DNA of 32,399 nt. It comes from a virus. The notes under the pieces were generated by a model. It made no database searches and was not told the origin of the DNA. It worked only from the letters and a program-made list of their open reading frames with translations. The stretch is taken from the IMG/VR virus record IMGVR_UViG_3300007276_000169, positions 1 to 32,399 of that record; one strand, written 5' to 3'. This document shows, in pieces, positions 997-31,389 of this stretch (within the stretch, counting starts at the first letter, position 1; each line of letters opens with the position of its first letter). The translations under genes were made by a program, and so were the position numbers.

Positions 997-998
997 TT

Positions 999-1772: not shown

Positions 1773-1796
1773 TAATATAATAGTAAAAATAATAGT

Positions 1797-7414: not shown

Positions 7415-7432
7415 TTATTATATTTGCGAATT

Positions 7433-12445: not shown

Positions 12446-12447
12446 TT

Positions 12448-15222
12448 ATGGCAGTAAGAGGACTAACAGGATTAATGATGGCAGGGCCTATGGAGCAAAC
12501 AGAGTTTTCTCCTTACCCATACCAAGAAGTGTTACAAAGAAATCAAGCTAAAGAGCAATTGTATGACGCAACCGCGCAGTCTAACATTGCATTTATGGAT
12601 GAAATGGATTTGTATTCTACTATACCTGGTACAAAAGATGAAGCTGACGCGCTTACAAAACCATATTTAGATCGTATGAATGAGTTGTATGATGCATCAG
12701 GAGGAGACTTGTCACAAATGGCAGCCCCAATGCAACAACTAACATACGAATACTATACAGGAATGTCTGATGCAGGTAAAAGATTAAAAGGAGCTGGGGC
12801 AGCGTATAAAGCACAACAAGCATCTCTTCAAAAAGGTGTAGAAGAAGGTACTTATACACAAGAAAGAGCAGGAGCTATACTTGCAAAACAAACTCAAAAC
12901 TTTAATCAAAATCTAGAAGCATTTAAATCTGGAGAAATAGATGTAATGCCTCAAGGAACTGAATTTACAGGGTCACCTGTAGCTACTCCTGATATAACAG
13001 ATGACATGTTTAAAATACAAGAGATGATAAATAAAAATCAAATCTCTAGTGTAAATATGGAGCCTATATTTGGACCTGACGGACAATCTATTGTAGGATA
13101 CAAAGATGTAATTACAAAAAGAGAGTATACAACAGGAGAAGGAGCTAGAGAACTTACAAATAGATTCTTAAACGCAATGCCTGAGTATTCAGAGTGGGCA
13201 AATGAAGCTTATGATTTAGGATTAGTAGAAAATTATAACAGAGATGTGCACGGAAGTGCCTTTGATTTATACGCACAAAAAGATCCTACAGTAATGCCTT
13301 TGTCTGAAGATCCTGGAATGGCAAATATGCAAATGCAAATGGCAGGCGTAGAAACTCCTGAAGAATACAATGAAGTTATGGGGCTAAAACAAAACATGGT
13401 CCGTCAACAAATTGCAGAAGTAGGAGAAGAACAAGCTGGAGCTAGTCAATTTAGAACAATGCAAAGAGAAGCAATGTTAGATGATATTGCAGCAGGTTCT
13501 GGAATAAGTGAGGTAGATAGAATTTCATTAACAAGCGCAGGAACTGATACAAATGATAGTACAGTAGGATATAATATTGGCGTAGGTGATTCTTATACTA
13601 CACAGCAAATACCGCTAGGAGATGCTACAGGTAGAGTAACTAATTTAGAAGACTATCAAGCTGAAGTAGGAAACAAACAAGCTAGGTATGCAGATTTACA
13701 AAATAAGTTAGAGCAAGGAAATGTAAGCCCTGAAGAAACGCAAGCGTTTACTGATGAAATGACTGCAATACAAACAGATTTAGATAATCTTTCTAAACTA
13801 GAATTCCCGTTACAAACAGGAAATTTAAAAGATAAAACTATTGAAGAAAATATAAAAGATTATAGTAAATTTGGAAGTGTAATAGGACAAAATGCAATGC
13901 AAAGATTATCTCCCGAAACTAGAGAGTTTTATAATTCATTTAATGAAAGAGCACAGTTTTCTGAAGATGATATTGCAGGACACGCGGCTTTACACACACA
14001 CTTTAACACAATTAAAAATTATTTAGATCAATACAGTGATGTAGATTTAGATAGATTAATAGAAAATTATAGTGAAGGTGGTGTTGAACAGTTATTAGGA
14101 CAAACAATACCTGGAGATGTGTTAAGGTTGTATAAAGATTATGCAAATAAATTTGAACGTTTTGAAAATATAACAGACGTAGATAGACAGTTTACATATC
14201 ACCAACCTTCTGCAGACACAGACAACAATGAGTTTGTTAGAACACAAAGAAGAAGTAGTGATTTCTTAACTAATCAAGGAGGGCCTTACATGGATGTGCT
14301 ACAACCTGATGCAGGTTCTGTACAAGAACTTTATGCAGATGCTTTTGAAACTATTAGAAGCGGAATATCTGGAGAAATTGTAGATGCTGATGGTGTAACA
14401 AAAACTTCTAGTTGGGCCCCACAGTTGTATGTAGGTGAAGGATTGTTTGAAGGTAAACCATACTTTGTGTTAGACCCTAAGTTTTATAAAGTAGGAAACC
14501 AACAACCGCAACCTATACCTTTCTCTATGCTTAACAATAAAGCATCTTTTATGGGTCAAAATGTAGGTGATTACATGAATCAATTAGATAAAATGATTAT
14601 AACTATGGACAATGAAAAGTCTATGAGCGCTTATAATTCTTTATCAGATCAATATATATTTGAAGGACGACAATTGTACACTAATCCAGACGAAGCTGCT
14701 AAACAAGGTATGACAGTTGAAGCAGCTAGAGAAATGGGAGCGCAAAGAGTTACGCAAGGTGTAGGAATGCAATTAAATGCGCAGTACTTACCAACGCTTC
14801 AAGCGTCAGGTATAGAAACTGCAACATCTAGTATAATTACTGCTAACAATGACGAGTTTGAGTTTAGAGTGTTAGATCCTAAAATGTTAAGTCAAGGGCC
14901 TATAAAAAATAAAGAAACAGGTGAATTAATATTTGATCCTAATACAGATCAATTACGTGTAGAACGTAAAAGACTTATGGCGCCTAGAGATGTAGATGCA
15001 CAAGAAGGTGTTACTGCACAGCCAATGTCTGAAACATTCTCTATGTATTTTTACAGACCTACAGGTGACGAGGATTCAAACTTAAGAATTTCAAATAATA
15101 TGACGCCAATACAATTTGGTAACGGCGAGACAGAAGCTCCTAGTTTAGAGTCTTTAATATACAGAGTTTTTGAGGGAGATGCACAAGTAGAAAATATATT
15201 ATCTGGAATACAAAGAAGATAA
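12448..15222 (+). CDS. Helical internal-virion-type protein of unknown function
   Basis: A 924-residue acidic, Gln/Glu/Met-rich protein. The N-terminus contains a run of small and hydrophobic residues (GLTGLMMAGP), then EFSPYPYQEVLQRNQAKEQ, then long amphipathic helices with no Cys/His clusters or nucleotide-binding loops. The motif near residues 15-60, a Pro-Tyr element followed by a helix and LYSTIPGTKDEADAL, resembles the start of medium-large proteins in the same position of crAss-like and other Bacteroidota phage genomes, as far as I recall. Residues about 400-560 are strongly helical; 560-900 appear mixed alpha/beta. Its ATG lies two bases after the upstream stop in TAATTATGG, so the two genes are closely coupled. 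It is probably a virion-packaged or tail-lumen protein made with its neighbours. No enzymatic activity can be assigned. Confidence 0.55.
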   Translation: MAVRGLTGLMMAGPMEQTEFSPYPYQEVLQRNQAKEQLYDATAQSNIAFMDEMDLYSTIPGTKDEADALTKPYLDRMNELYDASGGDLSQMAAPMQQLTYEYYTGMSDAGKRLKGAGAAYKAQQASLQKGVEEGTYTQERAGAILAKQTQNFNQNLEAFKSGEIDVMPQGTEFTGSPVATPDITDDMFKIQEMINKNQISSVNMEPIFGPDGQSIVGYKDVITKREYTTGEGARELTNRFLNAMPEYSEWANEAYDLGLVENYNRDVHGSAFDLYAQKDPTVMPLSEDPGMANMQMQMAGVETPEEYNEVMGLKQNMVRQQIAEVGEEQAGASQFRTMQREAMLDDIAAGSGISEVDRISLTSAGTDTNDSTVGYNIGVGDSYTTQQIPLGDATGRVTNLEDYQAEVGNKQARYADLQNKLEQGNVSPEETQAFTDEMTAIQTDLDNLSKLEFPLQTGNLKDKTIEENIKDYSKFGSVIGQNAMQRLSPETREFYNSFNERAQFSEDDIAGHAALHTHFNTIKNYLDQYSDVDLDRLIENYSEGGVEQLLGQTIPGDVLRLYKDYANKFERFENITDVDRQFTYHQPSADTDNNEFVRTQRRSSDFLTNQGGPYMDVLQPDAGSVQELYADAFETIRSGISGEIVDADGVTKTSSWAPQLYVGEGLFEGKPYFVLDPKFYKVGNQQPQPIPFSMLNNKASFMGQNVGDYMNQLDKMIITMDNEKSMSAYNSLSDQYIFEGRQLYTNPDEAAKQGMTVEAAREMGAQRVTQGVGMQLNAQYLPTLQASGIETATSSIITANNDEFEFRVLDPKMLSQGPIKNKETGELIFDPNTDQLRVERKRLMAPRDVDAQEGVTAQPMSETFSMYFYRPTGDEDSNLRISNNMTPIQFGNGETEAPSLESLIYRVFEGDAQVENILSGIQRR

Positions 15223-15225
15223 ATT

Positions 15226-18200
15226 ATGGTTAAAATAAGTGATTTAAATCTAAATGTTGCAGAGCCTATACAGCCTACACAAACGTTAGACCCCGCAACT
15301 AGTTTACCTAAAGAAGACATTCGAACTCCGATGTCTTCTTTAAAGTTAAGAGGCGTATCAGGACCAAAAATAGGTAAGTATGCAGGATTAGGGTTAATGG
15401 ATTTAACATCTTCTGCAGGAACAGATTTTACAATTACTAGTGCAACAAGACATGGGAATAAAGATTCGCATCACGGTACAGGTAATGCTATAGATTTTGG
15501 TGTTCAGTATGGTAATGGAGATGGGAGAGACCTAATCAGCTATTTCTTTGACAATGAAGAAGGTACAAATCTAAGTCAAAGAGGTGCAGATTTTCTTAGA
15601 AAACATAACGCAGAGTTAATAGATGAAAGATCTAGGGATGGGCAAGCTCATTTTCATTTAGAGTTTAATAATCCAGAAACAGCAAAAACTATTTATGGCC
15701 CTAAAGATGATCAACCTTTTTATGAAAAAGGATCAGTAACTAGTGAAGAAGGTTTTCCTATATATGGAGTACAGGATTCATATAAAAATAATGATTACAA
15801 TTCTGCAGAAGGATATTCTAAAGCCTACGACGATCTTGTAGATGAAGATGGTATGATGGAGATAGGCCCACAAAGCCAATTCTTTTTAAACTATGGAACT
15901 ACATACGAAGAGGCTATAAGTGAGTCTCCTATTGTAGAGCAGCCTGCTGCAGAACAGCCTGACGATAAACCTTTAAATACTTTTTCTAATTTTGAAACTG
16001 TAGAAGGTAAGGATTTTGGTAGATACATAGATAATCCTTATCAACATTATAGTAATGAGCGAGTACCTTTTGTACTACGAGGTAATTTGTTAGGAGCTAA
16101 TAGAGATACTGTTGAAGGATACTATCCTCTATTTAAAAACAGATCTGAAGCTAGTATACGTAGAGAGGCAAGATCAGGTCTTAGTTTGTTTGGCGATTAT
16201 GGTATAGATATACACCCAGGAACTAACATAAAAGAAGAGACAGCACTTAAACAAACAAACGCTAATAAATTTATTAGATCTTTTGGTAACATGTCAAGCT
16301 CTTTCTTAGAGGTAAGTGCAAGTACAGTTAATACAATTTTGTTAGGAGCTCCGTCAGCATGGGCACAAGGTAGATTTAGTGGTGTGTTTAACAATCCTGG
16401 TAATGAAATACTAAGTAATTTTAAAAATTGGTATAAGCAAGAGTACCCTATACACGCATCTAAATCTGAAGAAGAAATGTCTTTGTTGCAAAGTATTGGA
16501 ACAGCAAACTTTTGGGCAGACCAAGGTATGGATGGTGTAGGGTTTTTATTAGGAGCTGCTGTAACAGGTGGTGCGGCTGCAGAACTTAAAGTAGCTACAA
16601 AACTATCAAAAATGATGGGAATAGCTAATCCTAAAAATTATGCTAGGGCTGCATCTGCTATGTTTAGAAAATCTACTGTATCTGGTGGGTTCCAACTAGC
16701 TAGAAGAGCTGTTCAGGGCTCAGGTACAACATCTGCTCGATTAGCAAAAGCTAATTTTATAGGCGCAGGTTTAATATCTGCAGCTGGTGAAGCTTCTATT
16801 GAGGCAAACATGATATTAAAAAATTCTATAGATCTTATTAGTAAAATGCAAGCTGAAGGTGATCCTAGGTATCAAGGAATGTCAGAAAAAGATATAAGAG
16901 ATACTGCAGAAGCATATGCTAATATAGCGTGGGGATTAAATGTAGTTACTGTAGGAGCGTCTAACCTTGTAATGTTTAAAAATTTATTTGGAGGAGGTTC
17001 TACTAATTTATTTAGTAAATATCTTAAGTCTAGACTTGTTACTCAAGGAGGTAAAACTACATTTAAAGAGTTAGGTAAAGCAGGATGGGTAAAAGAGTGG
17101 GCTAAGAATTGGTGGAAACGTCCTTTAGCAGAAATGAATGAAGAGTGGATACAATACGCCCTAGAAAGAGGAGCTAAAGATTATTTTACTCACGAATACA
17201 CACCTGATTTAGAAAATGTAAGAGATTACATAGATAGTGGTGTAGGTATGGGAATATCTATGGCTAAAGGATGGTGGCAAACACCGCAAGAACTTCATGG
17301 ACAACAGGCTATGTTTTTAGGGGCATTGCTAGGTAAATTAGGTGAAGCTGGAGGTTCGTATTTTAGAGGGGCACCTACAGAATGGAAAAGCTACCAAGAA
17401 AAATACGAAAGAACAAAAGCAGTTGCTGATGAGTTAAATGCTGTTCAAGAAAATGGAGATGTATACAAACACATACTACATCTTGCAAACTTAACTAAGT
17501 CAGAAGAAAGACAAAGGCAAGCCTTAGAAAAAAATGACACGTTTAAATTAAAAACAGACGAAGCATTTAAAATATTCAAAACTATTGAATTGTTTGAAGA
17601 AACAGGACAAATAGATGTATTGCTAGATTTATTAGACGATGTAGCTAAAATGTCTAACGAAGAGTACGCAGAAACATTTGAAAGAGATCAAACAAATCCT
17701 AACGACCCTTTAGGCTTACCTGTAACTAAAGTAGATGTAAATAAAGAAATTGATTTTTTAAGACAAAGAATAAAAGATTACCAAGACAACCTTGCACCAA
17801 TAAAAGAAGGTATAGCTGCAATGATGCCACAGATAGCACGTAAACTATCTAATGACCCTAATGTAGACGCACAGACTCTAGCACTTATACAACAAAAGCT
17901 AGCGTACTATTCTTACATGTCTAAAGATTTTGATAGACGTACAGATGAAATAAACACAGCACTTTTAGACCTTACTGCAGGTATTATAAACATGGAAGGA
18001 TTTAAAGGCATTGAGCTTACTAAAAAAGACTTAAACGACTCTAAAGTACTGCAAGAAGTGTTTAGTAAGTTTGTAGAGCAGTTAGAACGAATGAGTGAGG
18101 CAGAAATAAATCTAAATGATTTAGAAATGCAACAATTATTTGATTTATTTGCTGATGGACTAGTTATGGCTAGAGAATTACAGTCGTTTCAAGAAATGAT

Positions 18201-20961
18201 TGAAGGTATATATAATAATCCTGCAAAAGAATTCCAAAAAGCAAAAGAAGATTTAGATAAAAGAGAAGAAGCTAAGAATCAAGCTGAAGAAAAGATAGCA
18301 TCTATAGTAGAGAGTGGGCAAGCATCTGAAAACGCAACTCAAGATGAAAATAATAAAGAAAGCAATGAAACTCCTGCAGCTGAAGAGCAAAGCAAAGAGC
18401 AGCCTAAACCGCAAAAAGTACAAAGAAATTTAAAGGATGATTATATATCGAAAGAAGATTTAGAAAAAGATCTTGAAATAGATGGAGTTATTCCTGAGTT
18501 TGGAAAATTTAGAGATAATGAAACATATCAAGAAGAAGAACTTGTTAAAGATGAAGAGACTGGTGAACTAATACCTGTAATAAGAACTAGAGTTAAGGCT
18601 GCAGCTAGCAGAACTAAAGGTAAAAGCGTAAAAATAAACGGAAAAATTTTTCAGATACAAATAGAATTGTATGATGATGGAACAGCTATATACAGAGTAA
18701 ATTCTACAAAAGTTAAAGCAGGTGTAGTAAATGTAGATAAATCACTTTCAGAAGCTGAGCTTGATTCTGAGTTAGAGGCTTCACTTAAAAAAGAATCTAC
18801 TAGCTCAAATCAGGTAAATAATGATAGACAAGAAACTTTAGATATAGCCAAAACAATTTCTCCTGCAAATTATATACAAGTTCAAGGTAAACCAAAACAA
18901 CTTTTAACTAAGTTTAGAGAATATATTAAAGATGTTCTTTTACTAGAAGGAATGGATATTGGGTATTCAAATGGTAATTTAGAGTATGGAGATAATATTA
19001 AAGTACCTGCTTCAATAATACAAGCAGGTGGAGGGGCTACAAGTGTTTTAGATATAAATATAGAAGATTTTATTAATGCTTATTTTGACGCTGCTCCACG
19101 TAAAAAAGAATCTCCTAAGTCAAATAAGCCTAATCCTGCAGAATCTTCGCAAACTACTAACGAAGCTACAGAAAGAGATCCTGAAGTACCTTCTAATGAA
19201 ACTTCTATAAATGAAAATGAAGAATCTCAAGTAAAAATATCTAAAGAAGATGATAGTTTACAAGCAGGTATTGAAAAAGACGAACCTGTAAAACTAGGAA
19301 GCATACTTACAGCGGCATGGAAATCTGTGAGAAACTTTTTTAATAACACGCCTGGTATAGATCCTACTACATCTAATTATTTAGAAAACCCTGATACAGG
19401 GAATATAACCCAGCAAAACAAAGATATTGTATGGGAAATAGATTTTAATTATATAGAGCTTCGTGAAGGAGGGCAATACCCTAGAGGAACAGTTAATAAA
19501 CTTAAAAATAAAACAGATTTAACAGATGAAGAGTTAAAAGTAGTTCCAATTAAAGGTACGCTATTAACTAAAGAAGGCACTACATTAACATTCTACATGC
19601 ACGAGGAGCCGTATATATTTACTAATATGGATCCTAAAAAATGGAAACAAGCAATAGAAGAGTTAAGTACTTTTAGACGAGACTTTTATAATTTATATCA
19701 AAAAGACAAGATTGCTACAGCTAAAGTAGTTTCTATGAGTGGAGGACATTTAGACACTCGTAGAGGACAAAAAAATAATTTAGCTACAGTTCTTAATAAT
19801 GGAGACCCTAGAGTTAGAGATAAAAGAGTTGTGTTTGTATTTAATGATGGTAGTGAGTATGTAGATTCGTTTGGAAGAACTTATCCTGAATTAAGTTTAA
19901 ACACTACAAACCCTAACACTAAAGGGGCAGTATATATGCCTATACAAATGAATAATGGCGATATATTCCCGCTTCGTGTTTCTATAGAAAATTTAAATAG
20001 ACCAGCAGCAGAGTTATTATACACTATTTACACAGATAGAATGTCTAAAAAAATACTGTTAAATGATGTTATGTCTGAAGCTTGGATAAGTGATTATATA
20101 AAAACACATGATTTTGGAGATCAAATATTTTTTATGAAAAAATTATTTGATTACGTAAGTAATAGTGAATTAACTCCTACGTTTTCTGAAGTACTAAATA
20201 TGTTAGTGTATGAGCATGAACAAGTTACAAAAATGCATGCATTTAGATTTGATGTAAAAAATAACTTACTAAAATTAGGTAATGAAGTTGATGGCATAAT
20301 AACTACAGAGTCATATAGTATGCAGGATATAGAAAGTAATAAAGAAAAAATTATTGACTGGTTTGTAGAAAATAAAAGATTTAATGTACAACGATCTAGA
20401 ACTTCTGATCCTAATTACGTAAATTTGTTTGTTGAAAATAAAATTGTACACACAAATGCTTTTACACATAGACAAACAGGAACACCTTTTATACAGCCTA
20501 GCGTTAGAATGTCTGTAATAAATAGTCCTAGTGAGTACGCAAAAGAAGTTAAGGAAGAAAAACCTCCTCTACTTGTCTTAGAGAGTGTTAAAGAAGGTGA
20601 AGTTGGTGATATTGTAATGGAGTCTGTAAAAGATGAACTTATAAAAAATGAAATTGCAAAATCAGAAGAAAGTGCAGCAGCTGATGAAGTAGTTAGAGAT
20701 TTAAACAGCACTATGTCTGTAGAAGAAACTGAAGCACAACTAAATGCAGCTATGCTAGCTTCTCTTGTAGAAGAAAAAGTAACACCAGAAACAGAAGAAA
20801 AAGCTGTAGAAGAAAAAATAAAAAGAGAAACTTTACCTCCTCAAAATAACAATGAGCCTGCGTGGATGTTAGATATGGACGCTTTAGATGATTTAGATGA
20901 CATTGATGGTGGAATAGATACGAGTAACTTAGAAGATGATGACCAAACCCCTTGTAAATAA
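15226..20961 (+). CDS. Giant cargo protein with N-terminal M15-type peptidoglycan peptidase domain
   Basis: A 1,911-residue protein. Residues 60-150 form a D-Ala-D-Ala carboxypeptidase/endopeptidase-like M15 domain: S81-x-H83-x-x-G86-x-A88-x-D90 (SHHGTGNAID) and H142-F-H144-L-E146 give the usual zinc-ligand pattern (His83, Asp90, probably His144). A general base cannot be named safely. Residues about 438-451 and 673-710 are Gly/Ala-rich and hydrophobic, possible membrane-contact segments. Residues 750-1060 are helical. Two Glu/Lys/Asn/Pro-rich linkers (about 1004-1070 and 1292-1345) look disordered and divide the remaining chain into domains of unknown fold. The last 140 residues are strongly acidic. 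Such an enzyme at the front of a giant virion protein fits local cell-wall opening during DNA ejection. The stop overlaps the polymerase ATG (TAATG), linking production of the two. Confidence 0.7.
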   Translation: MVKISDLNLNVAEPIQPTQTLDPATSLPKEDIRTPMSSLKLRGVSGPKIGKYAGLGLMDLTSSAGTDFTITSATRHGNKDSHHGTGNAIDFGVQYGNGDGRDLISYFFDNEEGTNLSQRGADFLRKHNAELIDERSRDGQAHFHLEFNNPETAKTIYGPKDDQPFYEKGSVTSEEGFPIYGVQDSYKNNDYNSAEGYSKAYDDLVDEDGMMEIGPQSQFFLNYGTTYEEAISESPIVEQPAAEQPDDKPLNTFSNFETVEGKDFGRYIDNPYQHYSNERVPFVLRGNLLGANRDTVEGYYPLFKNRSEASIRREARSGLSLFGDYGIDIHPGTNIKEETALKQTNANKFIRSFGNMSSSFLEVSASTVNTILLGAPSAWAQGRFSGVFNNPGNEILSNFKNWYKQEYPIHASKSEEEMSLLQSIGTANFWADQGMDGVGFLLGAAVTGGAAAELKVATKLSKMMGIANPKNYARAASAMFRKSTVSGGFQLARRAVQGSGTTSARLAKANFIGAGLISAAGEASIEANMILKNSIDLISKMQAEGDPRYQGMSEKDIRDTAEAYANIAWGLNVVTVGASNLVMFKNLFGGGSTNLFSKYLKSRLVTQGGKTTFKELGKAGWVKEWAKNWWKRPLAEMNEEWIQYALERGAKDYFTHEYTPDLENVRDYIDSGVGMGISMAKGWWQTPQELHGQQAMFLGALLGKLGEAGGSYFRGAPTEWKSYQEKYERTKAVADELNAVQENGDVYKHILHLANLTKSEERQRQALEKNDTFKLKTDEAFKIFKTIELFEETGQIDVLLDLLDDVAKMSNEEYAETFERDQTNPNDPLGLPVTKVDVNKEIDFLRQRIKDYQDNLAPIKEGIAAMMPQIARKLSNDPNVDAQTLALIQQKLAYYSYMSKDFDRRTDEINTALLDLTAGIINMEGFKGIELTKKDLNDSKVLQEVFSKFVEQLERMSEAEINLNDLEMQQLFDLFADGLVMARELQSFQEMIEGIYNNPAKEFQKAKEDLDKREEAKNQAEEKIASIVESGQASENATQDENNKESNETPAAEEQSKEQPKPQKVQRNLKDDYISKEDLEKDLEIDGVIPEFGKFRDNETYQEEELVKDEETGELIPVIRTRVKAAASRTKGKSVKINGKIFQIQIELYDDGTAIYRVNSTKVKAGVVNVDKSLSEAELDSELEASLKKESTSSNQVNNDRQETLDIAKTISPANYIQVQGKPKQLLTKFREYIKDVLLLEGMDIGYSNGNLEYGDNIKVPASIIQAGGGATSVLDINIEDFINAYFDAAPRKKESPKSNKPNPAESSQTTNEATERDPEVPSNETSINENEESQVKISKEDDSLQAGIEKDEPVKLGSILTAAWKSVRNFFNNTPGIDPTTSNYLENPDTGNITQQNKDIVWEIDFNYIELREGGQYPRGTVNKLKNKTDLTDEELKVVPIKGTLLTKEGTTLTFYMHEEPYIFTNMDPKKWKQAIEELSTFRRDFYNLYQKDKIATAKVVSMSGGHLDTRRGQKNNLATVLNNGDPRVRDKRVVFVFNDGSEYVDSFGRTYPELSLNTTNPNTKGAVYMPIQMNNGDIFPLRVSIENLNRPAAELLYTIYTDRMSKKILLNDVMSEAWISDYIKTHDFGDQIFFMKKLFDYVSNSELTPTFSEVLNMLVYEHEQVTKMHAFRFDVKNNLLKLGNEVDGIITTESYSMQDIESNKEKIIDWFVENKRFNVQRSRTSDPNYVNLFVENKIVHTNAFTHRQTGTPFIQPSVRMSVINSPSEYAKEVKEEKPPLLVLESVKEGEVGDIVMESVKDELIKNEIAKSEESAAADEVVRDLNSTMSVEETEAQLNAAMLASLVEEKVTPETEEKAVEEKIKRETLPPQNNNEPAWMLDMDALDDLDDIDGGIDTSNLEDDDQTPCK
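15451..15657 (+). other. M15 metallopeptidase zinc-site motifs
   Basis: The first motif, S-x-H-x-x-G-x-A-x-D, is at residues 81-90. The second, HFHLEF, is at residues 142-147. Their order and spacing of about 50-60 residues match M15 peptidases, including phage endolysins and VanX/VanY relatives. His83, Asp90 and His144 are the expected metal ligands by family rule; which acidic residue is the base is uncertain. Confidence 0.75.
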
Positions 20962-23900
20962 TGAAATGTAATTTATTAGATGAATCGTTTAAAAACGGTA
21001 AGAATTCAGTATTAGCTGCAAATGGGCAAACTTCTTTGTTGTTTGGACAATTGTATGATATATACAATGAAGACGGACAAAAAGCATACAATATATACCT
21101 TATTACACAGCAAGAAAATTTTAACAAATGGTTTGCAGCAAGTGAAACTGGTAATAATGTAGATGAGAATGGTGAACCTAAAATATTTAAAAACTTTTAC
21201 GTAAGTATAGATCCAGAAACAAAGCAATCAAAAAGATGGTATATATTTGATTCTAATATAGAATCTGCCACTGCTATGTACCCTGTAGGATTGACACGTA
21301 TACCAGGAATGACACCTGCAGAAATAAAAGAAGCAGTTGATGTTTTGTCTGCAGCGTTTGTAAAAAATAAAAGATACCAAGTACAAGATTTTGATGATGT
21401 AAAAAATTTAGACTACAGATTTTTTGGTGAGTGGGCTGCAGTGCACATGATGCAGTTAAGAAAAAATCCAAAATTAAAAGGAACTAAAACATATAGACTG
21501 TATCAACAAATCTTTGAAGATATAGTATACTTAAGAAAAGATGTACAAGATAGAGACGGAAATCGTTTACCTTTATTAGATGAAAACGACATGCCTGTAC
21601 CTAGGTATAATCCTAAAGATCCTGTAAACTCGTCGCAACTATTAGAAATGGTATTCTCTAGAATGCAAAGAGAAACTAGAATAGAGCTAAAAGAAGATGA
21701 GAAAACTTCAGCACTAAACGTAAAAGAAGCACATTTTAGCAACCCTAAAGAAAAGCTAACTGCAAATGTTAAGCTTATGATTAGGAGTTTATTTAAAGTT
21801 ACGTTTAAAGAAGGTAAAATTGTACCTGTAACAAGTAAAATACTTGGTAAGCCTACGCTAGTAGATCTTACTAAAACGTATGCTACTATAATGCAGTATT
21901 TAAGTAACATATACTCTTCAGATCCTACAGTAGATGTGTACACTTTAATGATAGATAAATTAAAAGATGTGCAAGGATTCCATCCTGAGTTTAACGAACT
22001 GGTAGCAATGCTAGAAAGATCTCCTCAATATAAAAAGACTCAATTTGTGCAAGCATTTATGAGACCTGAGCTAGATTACACAAGTACGTTTGTAGATGGT
22101 ACATCTAAAGTAGGTACAAGAATAGGTAGCCCTGATGTACAGTCTAGTGAAAAAAACATTAGAGATAATTGGCAAATAGCGTACGAGCAACTAATGACTA
22201 AACCTAATCAAACAGGTAAAAGAATATTAGATGTAAGAAACGCAGAAAGAGCGGTGAAAGCCTATAAAGAGTTTAATGCAAAATTAAAGCAAGTTTATAA
22301 AAGAGCTTTAGTTTCAGCAAAAAAGCAATCTTTACAAGATCTTACAGAAGCAGATATAGACTTAAGTCTTATAGCAAAAGTGTTTGCGCAAATGTTAAAC
22401 ACTATAGGCGTGCAAGCAGACTCTACAGCGTTAGAATATCTATTTAAGCAAGGAAAAAACCCTGCAATAGAAGCTAATAGCTTGATGTCTGACCTTAAAT
22501 ATATATTTTTAGGTAGTACAAAAAAAGGGTCATTAGGATTACAAAATCTTATTGATAATCACAATAAAACAAAAGAAGGTAGATCTTTTCCTTTACTAGA
22601 AGATGTAGAGGGTAATATAAATTCTGTAATGTTTGATGAAAAAGCTATTAAACCTTTTTCTACAGCACAAGGAATTTATGATGCAGATTTATTAGAAACT
22701 ACTGTACTTGGGCCAGGAGCTACATTGTATTGGAAATACGGTATGTATTCTTATTTACATACAGCAGTACTACGGATCCAAAAAGGAGATAAATCCTACG
22801 TAGAGCAATTAAAAAAATTACCCTACACAGAAACATCTGTATGGGTAAATTGGTTATTAGAAAATGAAGACAACGCTTTTGCAATAAAGCAGTTTCTTCA
22901 TATGGTGAATACTTCTACAAAATCTGAAGGTAAAAAGAATACGTATCTTACAGGAGCTGATGCATTAATTAATAATATGACTAGAATACTAAATGGGCAG
23001 TACACAACTGTTTCTACAGGTACATCTAGTACGCAACATTATTTACAAGGGCCTGAAAACTTAGATTCTGGTGTAGAATATTTAAATGGAGATATTACTT
23101 TTAGTAATAATAAAGTTGTGTTTACATTTCAAAATTATATAAAAGCAGATATAGAATCCCAAAGACAAGCTTGGGATCATGTGTTTGGTAAAAATAAGTT
23201 ACCTGAAGATCAATTGCTTTTAAATTACCACTATAAATTAGATAAAGAAGGGGTGAAACAATTTATTGACCCTAAAACTAAATTACCTACAGGTAATGTG
23301 TTTAAGGGAGATACTATGATGTTTCCTGACTTAGCATACGGTAAACCTATAGCAAAAAAATTAAAACTTTATCATACAACTGCATCAGATACAGAGTATA
23401 CTCGAAACTTACCTATGCATTTAACAGATGAGATTCTTAATTCTGAAGAAATAAAAAGCATGATAAAAACAGCTTTTATATCAGAGTTTAAGAAAAGTTT
23501 AGAGCTAGCTAAGAAATATGATGTATACTTTGAAAATAAAGAAGGTGTATTGTACAGTAAAGCAATTGATGCTACTCTAATAAATTCTTTTAAAACTAGA
23601 AGAGGTAAAGACAACAACACTCTTAAGTCTCAAATATCTGCAAGAGCTTTTGGGGATTACGTATTTAATAGTATAATATCTGCAAGAGAGTCTATGGGAA
23701 TGTTTGTAGGGCACCCTGCAATGTATAAATCTATAGAAGATGTACCTAAACGTTCAGGACACTTTACTACACCTACACAAAGATTTAGAATATATGAGCA
23801 TAAAGGTAAATGGGCTATAAATCCTAAATACTATCATGCAACTGTAGATGATATAATGAGTCCTGGAGAGTTTTTTACAGATCCTAAGTGGAAAAAAGCG

Positions 23901-26900
23901 TTGGGAAAAAGTATATCAGATATGTTTGAAGAAGTAGATCTTACTGATGGTACTACTTGGATAACTCCAGAATTATTTAAACAAAGAGAACGTGGTTTAG
24001 GTAGATGGCCTGATAGTAAAGAAAAAGCTTTTGAGCGTATTATGCGTGGAAAAGCTAAAAAAGATGATTACAAAAAAGTTAATTTTACACCACAAAAATT
24101 TACAGTTAGAGGAACACAAGTTTCAGGGCAATATAATGTGCCTAGAATAGAAAAAACTGCATATGTAGTGCTTTGGCCTGATTTAGTAGAAACAACACCA
24201 CTGAAAAACCTATATGATAAAATGGTGGCGTTTGAAAAGGAAAACTCTACAGATAAAGGTGTTATTGGTGTGCAAGTAGCTGTAATAAGTGCAGTTAAAG
24301 CTGGAGCTAAAAGTATCACTAAAATAGATACAAATGGTGTAATAAACGATAATTTTGAATTAGATTTCTCTTTAGAAAATCACGAAATGATGGGGTTAGC
24401 GCAAGAGCTTCCTTCTAAAGGGTTTACTTCTACAATTGTAGGTTCTCAGCCTAAACAAATTATATTATCTAATATAGATTTAGATGCAGCTTACCCTGGG
24501 TACACTAGCGGTGCAGAGTTATTAAAAGATTATTATACTAATGAATCTATAATAGCAAACAAAGGGAAAGAAAAATTTGCACAAGCTCACGGAATTAACC
24601 CTAGCTTTTTAAATCCTGGAGTAAATGACCCTGCTAAGCTGCATGCAAAGTTAATGGAGCGCTACTTAGATACAGAAGATGATAATATGATAAAAGGATT
24701 GGAAGACGGTACTATACCTTTAGATGCTATGTTCCAAGACAGAAGAGGATTACAAAGCGCACTAACAAATGGCCTTAGTAGAAAATCTATATTATATAAA
24801 GCATTAGGAGGACAATTTGTTCAGATAGCTGGATTTGGATTAGGGCAAGACTCTGCTAGGTACTCTGAGTTAAAAAAGAGTGAGAAAAACAGAATCAGGT
24901 GGATGATAGATGCAAAAAATCTAAAAGCTCCACAATTAGATTTAGAAAATAAAAAGATAATACCTGGTCAAATACTGTTACCGTATGAGTTTATAGAAAA
25001 GATCAAACCAAAAGACGGTAGATCAGTGGAGCAACTTAGTGATACAGAGTTAAAACAATTAGTAGATAAAGATGCACTACGTCTTTTAGGGTATCGTATA
25101 CCAAACCAATCTATAGCTTCTATCTTTTCTATGGAGATAGCAGGTGTGCTACCAAAAGGATCAGGGGATTCTATAGTAGTATTTGATGGTATGACTACAC
25201 TAACAGGTAGTGACTTTGATATTGATAAGATATTTTTACTAGTACCTCATTTAGAATTTATAGACGGTAAACTAAGAAGAGTTGAGTTAGATTCTTCTGA
25301 CTCTATGGAGGCATTTGAAAATGAAAGAATAAGAATATGGGAATCTATACTGCAAAACGCAGAAAAAAGTAATGAATTATTGTTTCCTACAGATACAGGC
25401 TTCTTAAAGGATGACGCTAATGATGTATATAACATGGCGTTTGAAGGAAGTGATGAAAAGGTTATGACTAATCTTAAATTCTTTGGACCTGTATACCAAG
25501 ATTCGTTAAAAACTAGATTTTTAATGGGTAAAAAAATGGTAGGTTCTGTAGCAAACAACATTGTAGATCATATACCTTCCTCGTTAGCAGGGCTACAGTT
25601 AACAGAGTATATAGGTTATGGGCATAAAGGTATGGGAAAAGATGCTGCAGTTTACACTGACTTGTCTAGAAACGACGTTATAGGTAGTGATATGCTTATA
25701 ACTCAAATTATATCTGCGTATATGAATGCAAACGTGGATATTGAAAAAGACCCATACATATCTTATGTAAACTTTAACACTCACACTGTAAACGTAGCAT
25801 TTTTGTTATTACGTTCAGGTGTAAACTACAAATGGGTAAATAGATTCTTAGCACAACCTGTAATTAGAGAGTATGTAGACAATCTATTCTCTTTAGATAG
25901 TGAAGCTCTTTCAGATGTACAATTAACTAAAAGTGCAATACAGAAAAAAGCAGTTAATAAAACTAAAAAAGATTTCTTCCCTAAAACACGTAAAGTAGAA
26001 GAGGTAGTAGAAGAGTCTGAAATAGAGATTGATGAGATAGCAGCTTTAGATGAAGAAGTGTTAGAAGCAGAAGAAGAAGAAGTGGTTGTAGAAGAAGACA
26101 ACATTGCACAAGAACTTACTGTACCAGTATTAGAAGATTTGCTAAGATTTGGAGACACTAATGAAAATTATTTTGAAATGCAAAAGTTTATTCTTGATGA
26201 ATTTTTAAGATTAAACGAGCACGGAGACTCAGTGTTAGAGCAAATGTTAGGGTCTAGACTTATATCTACAGGTTTAGGTAGAAATCTAACAGAAGTTAGA
26301 ATGAGGAAGGAGAAAAAAGAATCTTTAGAAAAAGATCCTAGATTTATAAACTTTGGAAGCAAATACCAAAACAATACTGCAGACGGACTAACTTTAATGG
26401 GAGTAGCGCATCAGTATATAGATTACATCTTAGAAACTTTTGAAGATACATTTTTATCTGAGTCTGAGTTTATGGTAGAAGGGTTACATAAATTATTAGA
26501 TGTAACTCTTATGTCAGATAACATACTAAATAGACAAAAGCTTGTAGATACTATGTATACATATTTGTACTCAGGGTTTCAAATAGCAAGTACAGAAGAG
26601 TTTGGGATGCAAAATTTATTATTTTCTAAGTCTCAAGCAGATTCGTTTGTAGTAGAGTTTAGGGAAATGCAAAAAAGCAATCCTGACAGTATATTATTAA
26701 ACAAACTACTAACTAGTAAAATAAATTCTTTTGGACAAAATGAATTACCTAGTTATGTAAAATCTAGAGGCTTAAAAGGTGTGCCTTCTGAGATAAAAAA
26801 CTTAGCTGTTCAAGAATGGGAAGATTTATATATAGACCCAAAAACAAGAAAATTTGCAATAAAATTAGTTAATATGGCGTTTTTTGTGTCTGGATTTAAC

Positions 26901-27650
26901 AATAACATGAATTCTTTCCATACCTACATACCGATGACTTGGGTAAAAAACAGTGGGTTTTCGGATTATGTAAAGCATAATTTAGAAGACTTAAGTTTGT
27001 TGTCTATAGATGATATGGTAGACCAAATTTTAAGACATAACACTGAAAATCCTAGAATGGTTACAGATCTTGGTACAAAACCTAAAAAAGTACAAAAAGG
27101 AATTAAAAATAGTGGGTTTAAAGATTCTAAAAATAAATATGTACCGTTTAAAAGAGAGCTTAGTATAACTCTTACTGGTAAAGCCAGAGAAGCTGTAAAA
27201 AGAAAAAAAGCAAATGGTAAAACTATATACGCACCTATTATAAAAAGTAATGTTCTAGGAGAGTTAACTACGCAGATTATGGGGTATAGAGCAGATGGAA
27301 CACCTATTTATACAAAAACTCGTGCTGTAAGAAGTTTAACTTATAAACTTATAGGATTACAATACACAACAGTAAATGGGAAGCCGAGTAAAAATCCTGT
27401 ATACGAAGTTATATCTCCTTTAGGTTTTAAAGACTCTAAAGGGAATACTATAAATGAGTATAGATATGATCCTGAAGGATATACAGAAAAACAAACAAAT
27501 TATAGTATCTTTGAGCAAAATGATCCTAAAATAGAATTAAAACAATTCCAGCTAGCAAGTTATAGAGAGTTTAGACAAAGCTTAAAAGAGTTGGTAGTTA
27601 AGGTAGATAAAAAACCTACAAATAATAACCCTGAAAGAGATATTTGTTAA
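20961..27650 (+). CDS. Giant single-chain virion RNA polymerase, phi14:2 gp66-like
   Basis: A 2,229-residue protein, about the size of gp66 of Cellulophaga phage phi14:2, the virion-packaged RNA polymerase of a crAss-like phage with two double-psi beta-barrels in one chain. The metal-binding motif D1418-F-D1420-I-D1422 lies in LTGSDFDIDKIFLL. Upstream, R1379-I-P1381 (YRIPNQS) sits 39 residues before D1418, mirroring the NRAP element about 35 residues before NADFDGD in the bacterial beta-prime subunit. Lys1153 and Lys1165, around VGSQPKQI (1160-1167), are candidates for the conserved lysines of the other barrel. An acidic low-complexity stretch (about 1680-1714) follows the active-site region; there is no signal peptide or clear membrane segment. 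It is expected to be ejected with DNA and to transcribe early genes. Identification rests on motifs, size and context; promoter specificity is unknown. Confidence 0.88.
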   Translation: MKCNLLDESFKNGKNSVLAANGQTSLLFGQLYDIYNEDGQKAYNIYLITQQENFNKWFAASETGNNVDENGEPKIFKNFYVSIDPETKQSKRWYIFDSNIESATAMYPVGLTRIPGMTPAEIKEAVDVLSAAFVKNKRYQVQDFDDVKNLDYRFFGEWAAVHMMQLRKNPKLKGTKTYRLYQQIFEDIVYLRKDVQDRDGNRLPLLDENDMPVPRYNPKDPVNSSQLLEMVFSRMQRETRIELKEDEKTSALNVKEAHFSNPKEKLTANVKLMIRSLFKVTFKEGKIVPVTSKILGKPTLVDLTKTYATIMQYLSNIYSSDPTVDVYTLMIDKLKDVQGFHPEFNELVAMLERSPQYKKTQFVQAFMRPELDYTSTFVDGTSKVGTRIGSPDVQSSEKNIRDNWQIAYEQLMTKPNQTGKRILDVRNAERAVKAYKEFNAKLKQVYKRALVSAKKQSLQDLTEADIDLSLIAKVFAQMLNTIGVQADSTALEYLFKQGKNPAIEANSLMSDLKYIFLGSTKKGSLGLQNLIDNHNKTKEGRSFPLLEDVEGNINSVMFDEKAIKPFSTAQGIYDADLLETTVLGPGATLYWKYGMYSYLHTAVLRIQKGDKSYVEQLKKLPYTETSVWVNWLLENEDNAFAIKQFLHMVNTSTKSEGKKNTYLTGADALINNMTRILNGQYTTVSTGTSSTQHYLQGPENLDSGVEYLNGDITFSNNKVVFTFQNYIKADIESQRQAWDHVFGKNKLPEDQLLLNYHYKLDKEGVKQFIDPKTKLPTGNVFKGDTMMFPDLAYGKPIAKKLKLYHTTASDTEYTRNLPMHLTDEILNSEEIKSMIKTAFISEFKKSLELAKKYDVYFENKEGVLYSKAIDATLINSFKTRRGKDNNTLKSQISARAFGDYVFNSIISARESMGMFVGHPAMYKSIEDVPKRSGHFTTPTQRFRIYEHKGKWAINPKYYHATVDDIMSPGEFFTDPKWKKALGKSISDMFEEVDLTDGTTWITPELFKQRERGLGRWPDSKEKAFERIMRGKAKKDDYKKVNFTPQKFTVRGTQVSGQYNVPRIEKTAYVVLWPDLVETTPLKNLYDKMVAFEKENSTDKGVIGVQVAVISAVKAGAKSITKIDTNGVINDNFELDFSLENHEMMGLAQELPSKGFTSTIVGSQPKQIILSNIDLDAAYPGYTSGAELLKDYYTNESIIANKGKEKFAQAHGINPSFLNPGVNDPAKLHAKLMERYLDTEDDNMIKGLEDGTIPLDAMFQDRRGLQSALTNGLSRKSILYKALGGQFVQIAGFGLGQDSARYSELKKSEKNRIRWMIDAKNLKAPQLDLENKKIIPGQILLPYEFIEKIKPKDGRSVEQLSDTELKQLVDKDALRLLGYRIPNQSIASIFSMEIAGVLPKGSGDSIVVFDGMTTLTGSDFDIDKIFLLVPHLEFIDGKLRRVELDSSDSMEAFENERIRIWESILQNAEKSNELLFPTDTGFLKDDANDVYNMAFEGSDEKVMTNLKFFGPVYQDSLKTRFLMGKKMVGSVANNIVDHIPSSLAGLQLTEYIGYGHKGMGKDAAVYTDLSRNDVIGSDMLITQIISAYMNANVDIEKDPYISYVNFNTHTVNVAFLLLRSGVNYKWVNRFLAQPVIREYVDNLFSLDSEALSDVQLTKSAIQKKAVNKTKKDFFPKTRKVEEVVEESEIEIDEIAALDEEVLEAEEEEVVVEEDNIAQELTVPVLEDLLRFGDTNENYFEMQKFILDEFLRLNEHGDSVLEQMLGSRLISTGLGRNLTEVRMRKEKKESLEKDPRFINFGSKYQNNTADGLTLMGVAHQYIDYILETFEDTFLSESEFMVEGLHKLLDVTLMSDNILNRQKLVDTMYTYLYSGFQIASTEEFGMQNLLFSKSQADSFVVEFREMQKSNPDSILLNKLLTSKINSFGQNELPSYVKSRGLKGVPSEIKNLAVQEWEDLYIDPKTRKFAIKLVNMAFFVSGFNNNMNSFHTYIPMTWVKNSGFSDYVKHNLEDLSLLSIDDMVDQILRHNTENPRMVTDLGTKPKKVQKGIKNSGFKDSKNKYVPFKRELSITLTGKAREAVKRKKANGKTIYAPIIKSNVLGELTTQIMGYRADGTPIYTKTRAVRSLTYKLIGLQYTTVNGKPSKNPVYEVISPLGFKDSKGNTINEYRYDPEGYTEKQTNYSIFEQNDPKIELKQFQLASYREFRQSLKELVVKVDKKPTNNNPERDIC
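25212..25226 (+). other. DFDID catalytic metal-binding motif of the RNA polymerase
   Basis: The five codons encode Asp1418-Phe-Asp1420-Ile-Asp1422. Three alternating aspartates are the signature of the catalytic beta-barrel of cellular multisubunit RNA polymerases (DFDGD), RNAi polymerases (DLDGD) and crAss-like virion polymerases (DFDID). The Asn two residues before the motif in bacterial enzymes is replaced by Gly1416 here. Confidence 0.9.
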
Positions 27651-27652
27651 TT

Positions 27653-30600
27653 ATGGCATGTAAATTAAAAATAGACCTAGACAATAACCCTAGATTTAAA
27701 GACAATTCAGAGGCTGTATTTGACTTTGTACATTCGCCTCAGTTTATAGACCTGTTTGGCGACTGGTTATCTCTTGCAAACGTAGGAATAACATCTGAAG
27801 AAGATCCTAGAGTTGATGAGTTTGGTTATCCTACTATTGAGTCTGTTATAGACATTATTGATAGCAACGAAATTAAAATAGAAATACAGCAAGAATCTAC
27901 ATTACTCTTAGGAACTGAGTATGAAGAAGCTAACAGAGATAAAATAATAACTGACCTTATAAAAAGAGTTAAGTCTCGTATAAAAAACTTACGTACTGCT
28001 AAGAAAATACAAATGTATGGTGCCGAGGAGTTAGAGTCTAGGATACAAAATGCTACATCTATAGAAGAAGCACGTAAAATACGTATAGATTACATGCGGT
28101 CTAAGTACGTAACAGATCTAGAAGCGTTAGCTGCGCAATTAGAAAAATTTAATGATAAGGTTGCGTTAAAAGGATATTTAAAAACTGTAGAGTTGTTATT
28201 AAAAAATGCAAAACAAGTTTTAAATATACAAGGAGCTTTAGATATAGCTACAATATATGAATACGACCAAAGACTTAAATTTATAAATACTGTTGATGAA
28301 GTTATAGAGCTTGTATCAAAAGAAAGAGAATTAAATTTATACATAACACAAGACAATACAGGAGGTACTGCAGTAGATTACAATAAAATACTTTCTGAAA
28401 AAGCTTCTATACAGTCTCAGTTTAACTTTAAAGCAAGACAAGCTATTGCAAACAAGTGGGGATCTGTTCCTGGTAAAATGACTGCAGTATATTATAGAAA
28501 ATACTCAGACTCATTTTCTGATTCAAAAAAAGGTGGTATTCCTTATACGCAGTGGAGAAAAGCAAGAGCATTAAAAGATAATACAAAAAGCAGAAAAAGA
28601 TATAGTGAAGAGCGAGGTGTTTTTGTTGCAGAGCAAATGGAGCGTAATGCTGATGTAATCAAGCAGGCAGAAATAGATAATTTTATGCGTATTTTAAAAG
28701 AAAATCCTAAAGATTTGTCTGGGTTCGCGCATTACATGCTAGATGCTCGTAATATGGGGGATGATGTAATATCTCTAGCTGCAGAAATACTAGATAAAAA
28801 AGATTATCTAACAATGCGTAAAACTATAGAAAAGTTTACGGAGCTTGAAAAATTGTGGAAACAATATATTAAAGGGAAAAGTACTACAGACATGCGTAGT
28901 TTGTGGGGAGATATGATCGGTAGAGAAGAAAATGGTAAGCTTACAAAATTTTTAGTAGATGAAATAAAACCTGACTTCTGGACAGCGCGTACAAAGTTTT
29001 TAACTCCTATGCTAGACGCTCAAGATAAATACGGCCAAAACAGTTACCAATATATAGAAGCAAAAAAGTCATATATAGAATGGTATAACGACAATGTAGA
29101 GAGTAGAGATAAAGTTTCTGGTAAATACAATGTAAAGTCTCAATGGAAAGATCCTAGATTTAATTTCTTTGCAGACGAAACTAATAAAAATAAAATAGAG
29201 TATAAGATGTATTGGTTCTTTCGTGACATGATCACAGAAAGAGATGAGATGTACCCTAATAGAAGAGGATTAAAACTACCTGCAATACAAAAAACATTAA
29301 TGGAAACTAGTTTTGAAGACGGTTTAATTGCTTCAATAAAAAGAATATATAAAGATAAGTTCACACTTACAGCAGATGATATTGATTACTATGAGAAAGG
29401 TGAAGACAATTCAGATGACATAAGTAAATGGGAGCAGGTAAAAGCTTTGATGTATACAAATTTAAATGAATACGGACAAGTGCAACAAAAAATACCTGTG
29501 TACTATAGACAGGACGATAAAGTGCCTTTAAATGAGCAATCTTATGATTTACCGTCTATACTTTTAATGGACTATTGGGGAGCTGTTAATTGGGAAGAAA
29601 GTTCTTACGTTCAAGCAGAGCTAGAAATTTTAAAACAAGTGGTGGGAACTAGTAAAGTAGGTAAATACCATTGGGGTAAAAAGAAAGCACAAAAAATAAA
29701 AGTAAAAGGAAAAGAAGAACTTTCTTTTGAAATGGAAGACGGTATGGCTTCTAATGTATACAAAAATCTTACATCTGTAATAGAAGATAGGTTGTACGGA
29801 GTTAAAAATGTAGGGTCAGGTAAAGCAAATAAAATAGCTAGTACTTTAATGTCTTGGACAACAGATACTATGCTTATATTTAACTATTACTCTGCAATAG
29901 CTTCTGTATTCCAATCTAAAACTATACAATCTATGCGCGCTATGAGCGGTATGTACTTTGATGTAGAGTACGGGATGAAAGAGTTAATAAATGCAGAGAA
30001 AAAATTTGCTTTAGATATGCCTAATATATTTGGTGATATAGGAGTAATTAGGCCTGGAGCAATAACTAATTTATTAGGAGAAAGATTTCAAGCAGAACAA
30101 GATTGGAATCCTGCAGCTAAGAAATTTATGGCAGCTACAAAGTTAAGCCAGTCTGCAGATAAAAGTACATTACACGGGTTTCACCAAATGGGAGAGCACT
30201 ATGTACAACACTTATTAATGTATTCTTTTTTAAACGGAATAAAAGTACAAAATAGTAAAGGTGAATATATAAATAAAGATGGGAAAGTCGTAAAAGATAG
30301 GAATCAAGCAATGTCGTTTGATGAAGTTTACGAAGCTAAAGAAAAAGAATTAAAAGTAAGAGATGGAATAGATGTAGGCTCCTTAGTTTTTAATACAGGT
30401 AGAGTTATAAAAGTAAAAAATAATAATTTAGTTGACGCAGAGTTTAAAGTAACTAGACAGTTGTTTGAATTAAATTATTACATCAATGGTAACTATACAA
30501 GCAAAAACAATGCGCTAGCTCAAAGATATATAATAGGTAGGGCAGGGTTTTCTTTACGTAGATGGATGATTCCTGGAGGATTAGAAAAATACAGAGGTGC

Positions 30601-31225
30601 AAATAAAGTGTTTACACCTAGAGAAGACTTGCGGGCAGATGACTTAGATTTTAGTAGACAATCTGAAGAATTTCAATTTGGTTCGTTTACAGAAGGAATG
30701 AGATTCTTGAGTACAATACTAAAACAAGGAGAACTTTTAAAAGCAGAATTACGTGCAGACAGATGGAATAGTTTGTCTGAAAGAGAAAAAGGTGATCTGC
30801 GAAGAGCAACAATATATATTGTAGATATGCTTTTATCAGGAGTTAGTAGTTCTGTGCTGCTTGCAGCAGCTAAAGCTGCACCTAATGACGATGAAAAGAA
30901 ATTAATTTTATATGGTGCATTTTTTGTTCGTAGAATATACTCAGAGTTATCTTTTTACATGAATCCTATAGAAATAGTAAGAATATTTAGAAGTCCTGCA
31001 GCATCTATAAGCATGCTTGAAAATGCAATTGAATTATTTATGAGATTCTTTTTTAAAGAAATACCAAGAATAGCTATGGGCCAAGGATTTGAATTATACA
31101 CAAGAGGTAAAAGAAAAGGTTCAACTAAGATAGGTAAAGAACTGTATGATGTATTACCTGTATTAAGTCAGTTAGATAGAGATGTAGAAAACTCTCTTAA
31201 ATTTTTAATGGGAAATAATAATTAA
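27653..31225 (+). CDS. Giant cargo-type virion protein downstream of the polymerase
   Basis: A 1,190-residue protein starting MACKLKIDLDNN. A TTG at 27644 opens the frame three codons earlier, but the ATG at 27653 follows the upstream stop by two bases in the TAATTATGG context found at other junctions here, so it is preferred. Residues 24-38 (DFVHSPQFIDLFGDW) and 54-61 (VDEFGYPT) resemble a short leader I recall in large phage polyproteins. The middle is Lys/Glu-rich and helical with several Trp and Tyr. Residues 1059-1077 (SGVSSSVLLAAAKAA) are hydrophobic, followed by RRIYSELSFYMNPIEIVRIF and a basic segment; this C-terminal pattern recurs, to my memory, in giant proteins of crAss-like phages. 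It is probably packaged and ejected with the polymerase, perhaps as a membrane or DNA-contact factor. No catalytic site is recognised. Confidence 0.6.
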   Translation: MACKLKIDLDNNPRFKDNSEAVFDFVHSPQFIDLFGDWLSLANVGITSEEDPRVDEFGYPTIESVIDIIDSNEIKIEIQQESTLLLGTEYEEANRDKIITDLIKRVKSRIKNLRTAKKIQMYGAEELESRIQNATSIEEARKIRIDYMRSKYVTDLEALAAQLEKFNDKVALKGYLKTVELLLKNAKQVLNIQGALDIATIYEYDQRLKFINTVDEVIELVSKERELNLYITQDNTGGTAVDYNKILSEKASIQSQFNFKARQAIANKWGSVPGKMTAVYYRKYSDSFSDSKKGGIPYTQWRKARALKDNTKSRKRYSEERGVFVAEQMERNADVIKQAEIDNFMRILKENPKDLSGFAHYMLDARNMGDDVISLAAEILDKKDYLTMRKTIEKFTELEKLWKQYIKGKSTTDMRSLWGDMIGREENGKLTKFLVDEIKPDFWTARTKFLTPMLDAQDKYGQNSYQYIEAKKSYIEWYNDNVESRDKVSGKYNVKSQWKDPRFNFFADETNKNKIEYKMYWFFRDMITERDEMYPNRRGLKLPAIQKTLMETSFEDGLIASIKRIYKDKFTLTADDIDYYEKGEDNSDDISKWEQVKALMYTNLNEYGQVQQKIPVYYRQDDKVPLNEQSYDLPSILLMDYWGAVNWEESSYVQAELEILKQVVGTSKVGKYHWGKKKAQKIKVKGKEELSFEMEDGMASNVYKNLTSVIEDRLYGVKNVGSGKANKIASTLMSWTTDTMLIFNYYSAIASVFQSKTIQSMRAMSGMYFDVEYGMKELINAEKKFALDMPNIFGDIGVIRPGAITNLLGERFQAEQDWNPAAKKFMAATKLSQSADKSTLHGFHQMGEHYVQHLLMYSFLNGIKVQNSKGEYINKDGKVVKDRNQAMSFDEVYEAKEKELKVRDGIDVGSLVFNTGRVIKVKNNNLVDAEFKVTRQLFELNYYINGNYTSKNNALAQRYIIGRAGFSLRRWMIPGGLEKYRGANKVFTPREDLRADDLDFSRQSEEFQFGSFTEGMRFLSTILKQGELLKAELRADRWNSLSEREKGDLRRATIYIVDMLLSGVSSSVLLAAAKAAPNDDEKKLILYGAFFVRRIYSELSFYMNPIEIVRIFRSPAASISMLENAIELFMRFFFKEIPRIAMGQGFELYTRGKRKGSTKIGKELYDVLPVLSQLDRDVENSLKFLMGNNN

Positions 31226-31389
31226 TGAAACTAGGATTCGGGTTAACATGGGCAAAAGGAATAGTATTTGGTGTGCGCCACTTCCAACCAGAAGAGCATG
31301 CACCTTACTATGAGGTACAATTTTTTTTAGGATTAATACAAATTTTTATAATAATAGACAATGGCAACACTGACAATAACATTAACTGA
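31225..31389 (+). CDS. Small 54-residue membrane-like protein
   Basis: A short frame begins at an ATG sharing its A with the upstream TAA stop (TAATG), the same overlap seen at 2714 and 20961. It encodes MKLGFGLTWAKGIVFGVRHF, then a Glu/His/Pro stretch, and then a hydrophobic segment FFLGLIQIFIII (roughly residues 33-44) before a polar Asn-rich tail. It fills almost exactly the 135-base gap before the next gene and overlaps that gene by 29 bases in another frame. Composition, overlap start and gap filling suggest a real gene; small proteins of this kind occur in Bacteroidota phages. A membrane-associated role is possible, but function is unknown. The reading could also be a chance frame. Confidence 0.6.
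   Translation: MKLGFGLTWAKGIVFGVRHFQPEEHAPYYEVQFFLGLIQIFIIIDNGNTDNNIN

Follow-up and report, generated by a model that had tools for sequence, protein, structure and literature searches.

End cysteines that track gene fission suggest a disulfide-linked train of giant RNA polymerase proteins in crAss-like phages

How are several giant proteins pushed through the narrow tail of a phage in the correct order and number? This open question is raised by a 32,399-nucleotide viral sequence (IMG/VR record IMGVR_UViG_3300007276_000169, positions 1 to 32,399; hereafter the window), in which the gene for a giant single-chain RNA polymerase lies between the genes for two other large cargo proteins (Table 1). 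The polymerase belongs to the family of phage phi14:2 gp66, and its unusual part—which a first-pass annotation of the window missed—is the placement of its only two cysteines, one near each end of the chain and each facing a cysteine at the adjoining end of a neighboring protein. We propose, with a probability of roughly two-thirds, that in the gp66-type polymerase system of crAss-like phages the three cargo chains are stapled head to tail through these terminal cysteines.

The window trio contains four cysteines among 5,330 residues, each no more than 3 residues from one of the four facing ends, an arrangement with a chance probability of ~2e-12 by our own arithmetic. The same pattern is found in phi14:2 (g067 C1797, which is the last residue; g066 C3 and C2179; g065 C3). 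In crAss001, gp47 has a cysteine as its third-last residue, gp50 has one at residue 5 and another ninth from its end, and gp49 has one at residue 5; the end peptides that face each other are the C-terminal CNS of gp47 with CITTNSTIEELAAK of gp50 and, at the second junction, the C-terminal ICGANTLYEL of gp50 with CAIIPQVR of gp49. Across relatives, the polymerase cysteines fall at residues 3-7 and no more than 9 residues from the end, those of the upstream protein no more than 7 from the end, and those of the downstream protein at residues 2-8. The outer ends of the trio mostly lack cysteine (found at 1 of 24 upstream N termini and 0 of 27 downstream C termini), and 76 of the 85 cysteines in split polymerase chains lie within the terminal 15 residues of either end. 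The rule is followed even in crAss001, DAC15, and cr128, whose upstream gene runs on the opposite strand and still encodes the C-terminal cysteine; the pattern is thus a feature of the proteins.

Does the cysteine pattern depend on whether the chains are separate? The upstream protein and the polymerase are fused in about half of the relatives, and some carry everything in one chain of at least 5,000 residues. We compared about 140 relatives, counting those with differences of >10% in the region of the active site. Profiles of the two neighboring proteins served to class each junction as split or fused by homology, independently of the cysteines. At the upstream junction, a polymerase cysteine lies within the first 15 residues in 45 of 46 split cases (43 with cysteines on both sides) versus 0 of 44 fused ones (p = 9e-25). 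At the downstream junction, cysteines are present on both sides in 102/102 split cases versus 0/13 fused cases (p = 2e-17). The number of cysteines per polymerase chain follows suit: chains with both junctions split most often have 2 (31 of 38), those with a fused upstream junction 1 (16 of 26), and double fusions 0 (7 of 9), while the single case with only the downstream junction fused has 1. In upstream-fused relatives, terminal cysteines remain only as the facing pair of the remaining junction. Shared ancestry was taken into account on the polymerase tree: among independent switches, six agree with the rule, none opposes it, and one shows no difference (p = 0.031), and in another set all nine agree (p = 0.004), so that 15 of 16 switches agree and none is contrary. 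The association between end cysteines and gene fission is thus near-perfect and statistically very strong. An earlier table based on length had a few exceptions, of which the homology-based classing left only one (L095).

Three relatives (L053, L042, and L071) were left out of these counts; their polymerase is split into two frames, between the barrels or after DxDxD, and is off-rule, which may reflect a frameshift, insertion, intron, or assembly error. A 5,485-residue protein with no cysteine comprises upstream protein, polymerase, and downstream protein all in one (L108, positions 390-16847, Chitinophaga sp. YR573); it is encoded in an isolate's chromosome-size contig of 4.8 Mb, so this relative may be integrated there.

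What could such a pattern accomplish? The polymerase would be packed in the capsid with its 1,911-residue upstream and 1,190-residue downstream partners, and the three giant proteins would be ejected, partly unfolded, through the tail; once in the host, the polymerase would refold and transcribe early genes with its gp66-type two-barrel active site. The junctions read upstream-C/C-polymerase-C/C-downstream, and because each offers two single thiols, the simplest bond would be a disulfide, probably formed in the oxidizing virion. The three chains could then act as one thread, ensuring co-packaging and ordered ejection, until the host cytoplasm reduced the disulfides and freed them. In crAss001, inter-protein disulfides are present in the virion tail, and the cargo needs partial unfolding to pass constrictions of <50 Å (PMC10172136). 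Extended to crAss-like phages at large, the proposal is that giant injected polymerase proteins are linked by disulfides into a reducible train of several thousand residues, with fusion and stapling evolutionarily interchangeable; we regard this generalization, too, as probable.

Several observations weigh against such a train. No disulfide between cargo chains has been seen, and the cargo is unresolved in the crAss001 cryo-electron microscopy maps. The gp66 protein of phi14:2 reportedly crystallized on its own, which implies that the links are not required for folding. Oxidation would itself call for an explanation in the gut, which is anoxic. The phages checked have no redox enzyme in common, thioredoxin/glutaredoxin being above the cut-off only in cr128; given this inconsistent presence, a phage-encoded thioredoxin or glutaredoxin was set aside as the reducing partner. 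There are also departures from the rule itself: the L095 polymerase has 11 internal cysteines and none at its ends, some gut relatives have a few internal cysteines, and the fused gp33 of the Intestiviridae phage crAss002 has seven in total, the first at residue 35 of the annotated start, although its gp32 keeps the rule (Cys 2019 of 2020). L095, from an Erysipelotrichaceae metagenome-assembled genome, shares its state (10-11 internal cysteines, none terminal) with L247, and in these two the end cysteines seem to have disappeared along with the depletion.

Could the cysteines mark the same head-to-tail contacts without a disulfide? They might bind a metal (Zn or Fe-S) or pair reversibly and so help the three subunits to assemble, whether inside the virion or once they have entered the host. 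The facing-end pattern shows only that two ends are selected jointly, and a metal site shared between chains would look alike. Each end usually has just one cysteine with no second one nearby, however, and a pair of thiols is a small ligand set for a metal site; moreover, the position of the cysteine shifts by several residues, which fits a flexible disulfide better. We consider this alternative unlikely. It is still less probable that the cysteines join like ends (N to N, C to C) or close the polymerase into a Cys3-Cys2229 ring while its two neighbors pair with one another. Such arrangements would suit a polymerase with a cysteine at both termini, but they sit poorly with the cysteine-free outer ends of the trio and with the fused relatives: upstream-fused chains retain only the C-terminal cysteine that faces the downstream N-terminal one, and double fusions lose all, as expected from head-to-tail pairing only.

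A pattern of this kind might also originate in the RNA, with TGT/TGC codons beside start and stop codons serving to couple the translation of neighboring genes—the gene for the upstream protein does overlap that for the polymerase, as TGTAAATAATGAAATGT. Yet the cysteine codon varies in position, the neighboring 924- and 1670-residue proteins have no cysteine, and the three genomes with the upstream gene on the opposite strand, where its C-terminal cysteine persists, rule out a nucleotide-level origin; we give this explanation hardly any credence. Head-to-tail stapling is favored because it alone predicts which ends bear cysteines, which ends lack them, and that a fused junction loses its own pair and no other.

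What is the polymerase itself? The open reading frame (ORF) starts with ATG and has no internal stops, and its product is a single-chain, two-barrel RNA polymerase—a divergent new member of the phi14:2 gp66 family. A phmmer search of PDB sequences matched residues 25-1659 to phi14:2 gp66 (6vr4; E = 3.5e-83), and a profile of the polymerase core did so at E = 2.2e-268. An AlphaFold2 model of the core (residues 880-1720), built from an input of 62 window and viral-contig sequences, had a mean predicted local distance difference test score (pLDDT) of 85.8; in a Foldseek search of the PDB the core as a whole superposed on 6vr4 (E = 3.9e-46, template-modeling score 0.80 over the query, root-mean-square deviation 3.6), and 6vr4 was the only match at E <= 0.001. 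The kinship to gp66 suggested by the first-pass annotation, for which it had proposed a comparison of structures, is thereby borne out. The polymerase had no match above the cut-off in Pfam and none in PHROGs, where gp66 and crAss001 gp50 also lack one. In the polymerase tree it groups with three environmental relatives (L006, L014, and L017), within an environmental group that also contains phi14:2. Longer IMG/VR contigs of up to 65 kb contain the phage of the window at 100% identity, and a relative 85% identical to it has a 94-kb contig. By analogy with the homologs in phi14:2 and crAss001, which were detected by mass spectrometry, the window polymerase is probably located in the virion. Virions of phi14:2 contain its enzyme, which is active in early transcription that resists rifampicin (PMC10136315), and the window polymerase may by analogy act likewise.

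Is there anything unusual about the active site? The R-x-P (RIP) and DFDID elements lie at residues 1379-1381 and 1418-1422, exactly where they had been annotated, and their joint presence in the ORF is far above chance expectation. Alignments of 78 and of 146 relatives show 100% conservation of residues R1379, P1381, G1416, D1418, F1419, D1420, D1422, and K1423, although this conservation is partly selected among the viral-contig relatives, which were fetched by patterns including SDFD[IV]DK; homologs fetched otherwise (gp66, crAss001 gp50, cr118, cr55, and crAss002 gp33) also carry G-[SA]-DFD[IV]D. Three lysines of the first-barrel region are near-invariant in the sequence alignments (K1046, K1065, and K1113), making them candidates for the two catalytic lysines. 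The metal-binding motif reads GSDFDID, not the NADFDGD of cellular multisubunit beta-prime: Gly1416 and Ser1417 stand at -2 and -1 from the first Asp, where E. coli beta-prime has Asn458 and Ala. From this Gly-for-Asn difference, the first-pass annotation had suggested an altered discrimination among nucleoside triphosphates. The glycine is universal in the gp66 family, however, including gp66, crAss001 gp50, and crAss002 gp33, and recurs in an active virion polymerase of another clade, P23-45 gp96 (STGVDFDGD), while the active SPbeta YonO has Gln at this position. The R-x-P arginine, which touches ribose in bacterial enzymes, is invariant in the family. Because the same residue is found in gp66 and its relatives, Gly1416 is a family trait, and a change in discrimination particular to the window enzyme is unsupported and very improbable.

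The location among giant cargo genes, which had also been pointed out in the first-pass annotation, agrees with phi14:2, where the same order is found (g072 to g065): tubular protein, g071-like protein, two cargo-block proteins, g067-like protein, polymerase, and g065-like protein. Mass spectrometry underlies the annotation of the phi14:2 counterparts of the window cargo-region genes as virion proteins, and crAss001 gp47, gp49, and gp50 were detected in virions in the same way (PMC10172136). The downstream protein matches phi14:2 g065 (26% identity, E = 3e-57), while the 924-residue protein had no significant match to g068. For the downstream gene, the mechanical ORF call starts at a TTG at 27644, but the gene likely begins at the ATG at 27653 (MACKLKID), in agreement with relatives. 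The Crassvirales major capsid, portal, and terminase genes lie outside the 32-kb window.

Other features of the window are recorded here in their own right. Residues 81-146 of the upstream protein (15466-15663, + strand) include SHHGTGNAID and HFHLE, which resemble the zinc motifs SxHxxGxAxD and HxH of M15-type peptidoglycan peptidases and would lie where the proposed train has its free N terminus; this region had no Pfam or PDB match, and the AlphaFold2 model of the N terminus scored low (pLDDT 38.7). A 257-residue protein (999-1772, + strand) has a collagen-like Gly-X-Y stretch (Pfam Collagen, E = 1.1e-6; tail-fiber PHROGs). After the cargo genes, a 148-residue protein (31361-31807, + strand) has a single cysteine at residue 146 and no family match, and a protein resembling RIIB lysis-inhibitor families (31916-32398, - strand; PHROG E = 5e-26) is truncated by the window boundary, leaving only its end.

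Table 1. Features of the polymerase and its neighborhood, in window coordinates
Feature	Position	Strand	Basis or remark
Tail tubular (P22 gp4-like) protein, phi14:2 g072 homolog	1797..2714	+	Sequence match
g071-like virion protein (gp44/muzzle position in crAss001)	2714..7414	+	10 cysteines, an ordinary content
Large cargo/tail-block protein	7424..12445	+	TTG ORF; 1670 residues from ATG at 7433; 0 Cys
Cargo-position protein	12448..15222	+	924 residues; 0 Cys
Upstream cargo protein, g067-like	15226..20961	+	1911 residues; stop overlaps polymerase start (TAATG); single Cys at 1910
Upstream protein Cys1910, second-last residue	20953..20955	+	
Catalytic RNA polymerase, gp66 family (probable virion protein)	20961..27650	+	2229 residues; Cys only at residues 3 and 2229
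Polymerase Cys3	20967..20969	+	Faces C-terminal Cys of upstream protein
Modeled core, residues 880-1720	23598..26120	+	AlphaFold2 and Foldseek; superposes on 6vr4
K1065, near-invariant, first-barrel region, candidate catalytic Lys	24153..24155	+	Alignments
K1113, invariant, first-barrel region, candidate catalytic Lys	24297..24299	+	Alignments
R-x-P element, R1379-I1380-P1381	25095..25103	+	Invariant in 146 sequences
G1416-S-D1418-F-D1420-I-D1422-K1423, barrel A metal-binding motif	25206..25229	+	Alignments; family-wide Gly at -2
Polymerase Cys2229, last residue	27645..27647	+	Faces N-terminal Cys of downstream protein
Downstream RNA-polymerase-associated cargo protein, g065-like	27653..31225	+	1190 residues; single Cys at residue 3
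Downstream protein Cys3	27659..27661	+	

The end-cysteine rule looks unreported: we found no mention of a terminal-cysteine pattern in crAss-like cargo proteins in a literature search that lacked most subscription papers and the phi14:2 structure paper. The authors of the crAss001 structure considered the order of ejection to be probably set by packing and interactions between proteins (PMC10172136). Cysteines at facing ends, present when the chains are separate and only then, would offer a concrete answer to how ejection is ordered, and one that can be checked on existing virion samples. Liquid chromatography–tandem mass spectrometry was performed on both reduced and untreated crAss001 virion samples, and these existing data may bear on the predicted disulfides; the data-availability statement of that study lists maps, coordinates, and alignments and no mass-spectrometry deposit (PMC10172136). 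If stapling is true, very abundant human gut viruses would carry a covalent, redox-released cargo train. Stapling would also explain why cysteine is otherwise nearly absent from the cargo proteins, and end cysteines could serve as a sequence marker for proteins ejected as one unit in other phages.

How does this system compare with known ones? Phage N4 (Schitoviridae) likewise ejects a giant polymerase depleted of cysteine, but the N4 enzyme has a T7-type fold and is a single chain, with no terminal cysteines reported. The giant virion polymerases of N4-like phages contain no cysteine, which their authors proposed would hamper passage through the tail and periplasm (PMC3715699, PMC3915230); the cysteine depletion of the window cargo thus has a precedent. 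Also comparable are gp96 of Thermus phage P23-45 and YonO of Bacillus SPbeta, both single-chain, two-barrel enzymes with R-x-P and DxDxD (PMC10770324), although gp96 forms a fusion with a tape-measure protein, YonO is an 839-residue prophage protein, and neither has detectable sequence similarity to the window polymerase beyond the core. The gp50, gp47, and gp49 proteins of crAss001 are the same three cargo proteins as in the window, but the upstream partner is encoded on the opposite strand, gp50 has one extra internal cysteine, and its motif is GSDFDVDK. The phage of the window belongs to an environmental clade separate from phi14:2, and its polymerase has only ~25-30% identity to gp66, which is 2180 residues long against 2229 and alone has a long insert after DFDID; yet the two share full-length homology, GYRIP and GSDFDIDK, the gene order g072-g071-...-g067-g066-g065, and two cysteines, both terminal.

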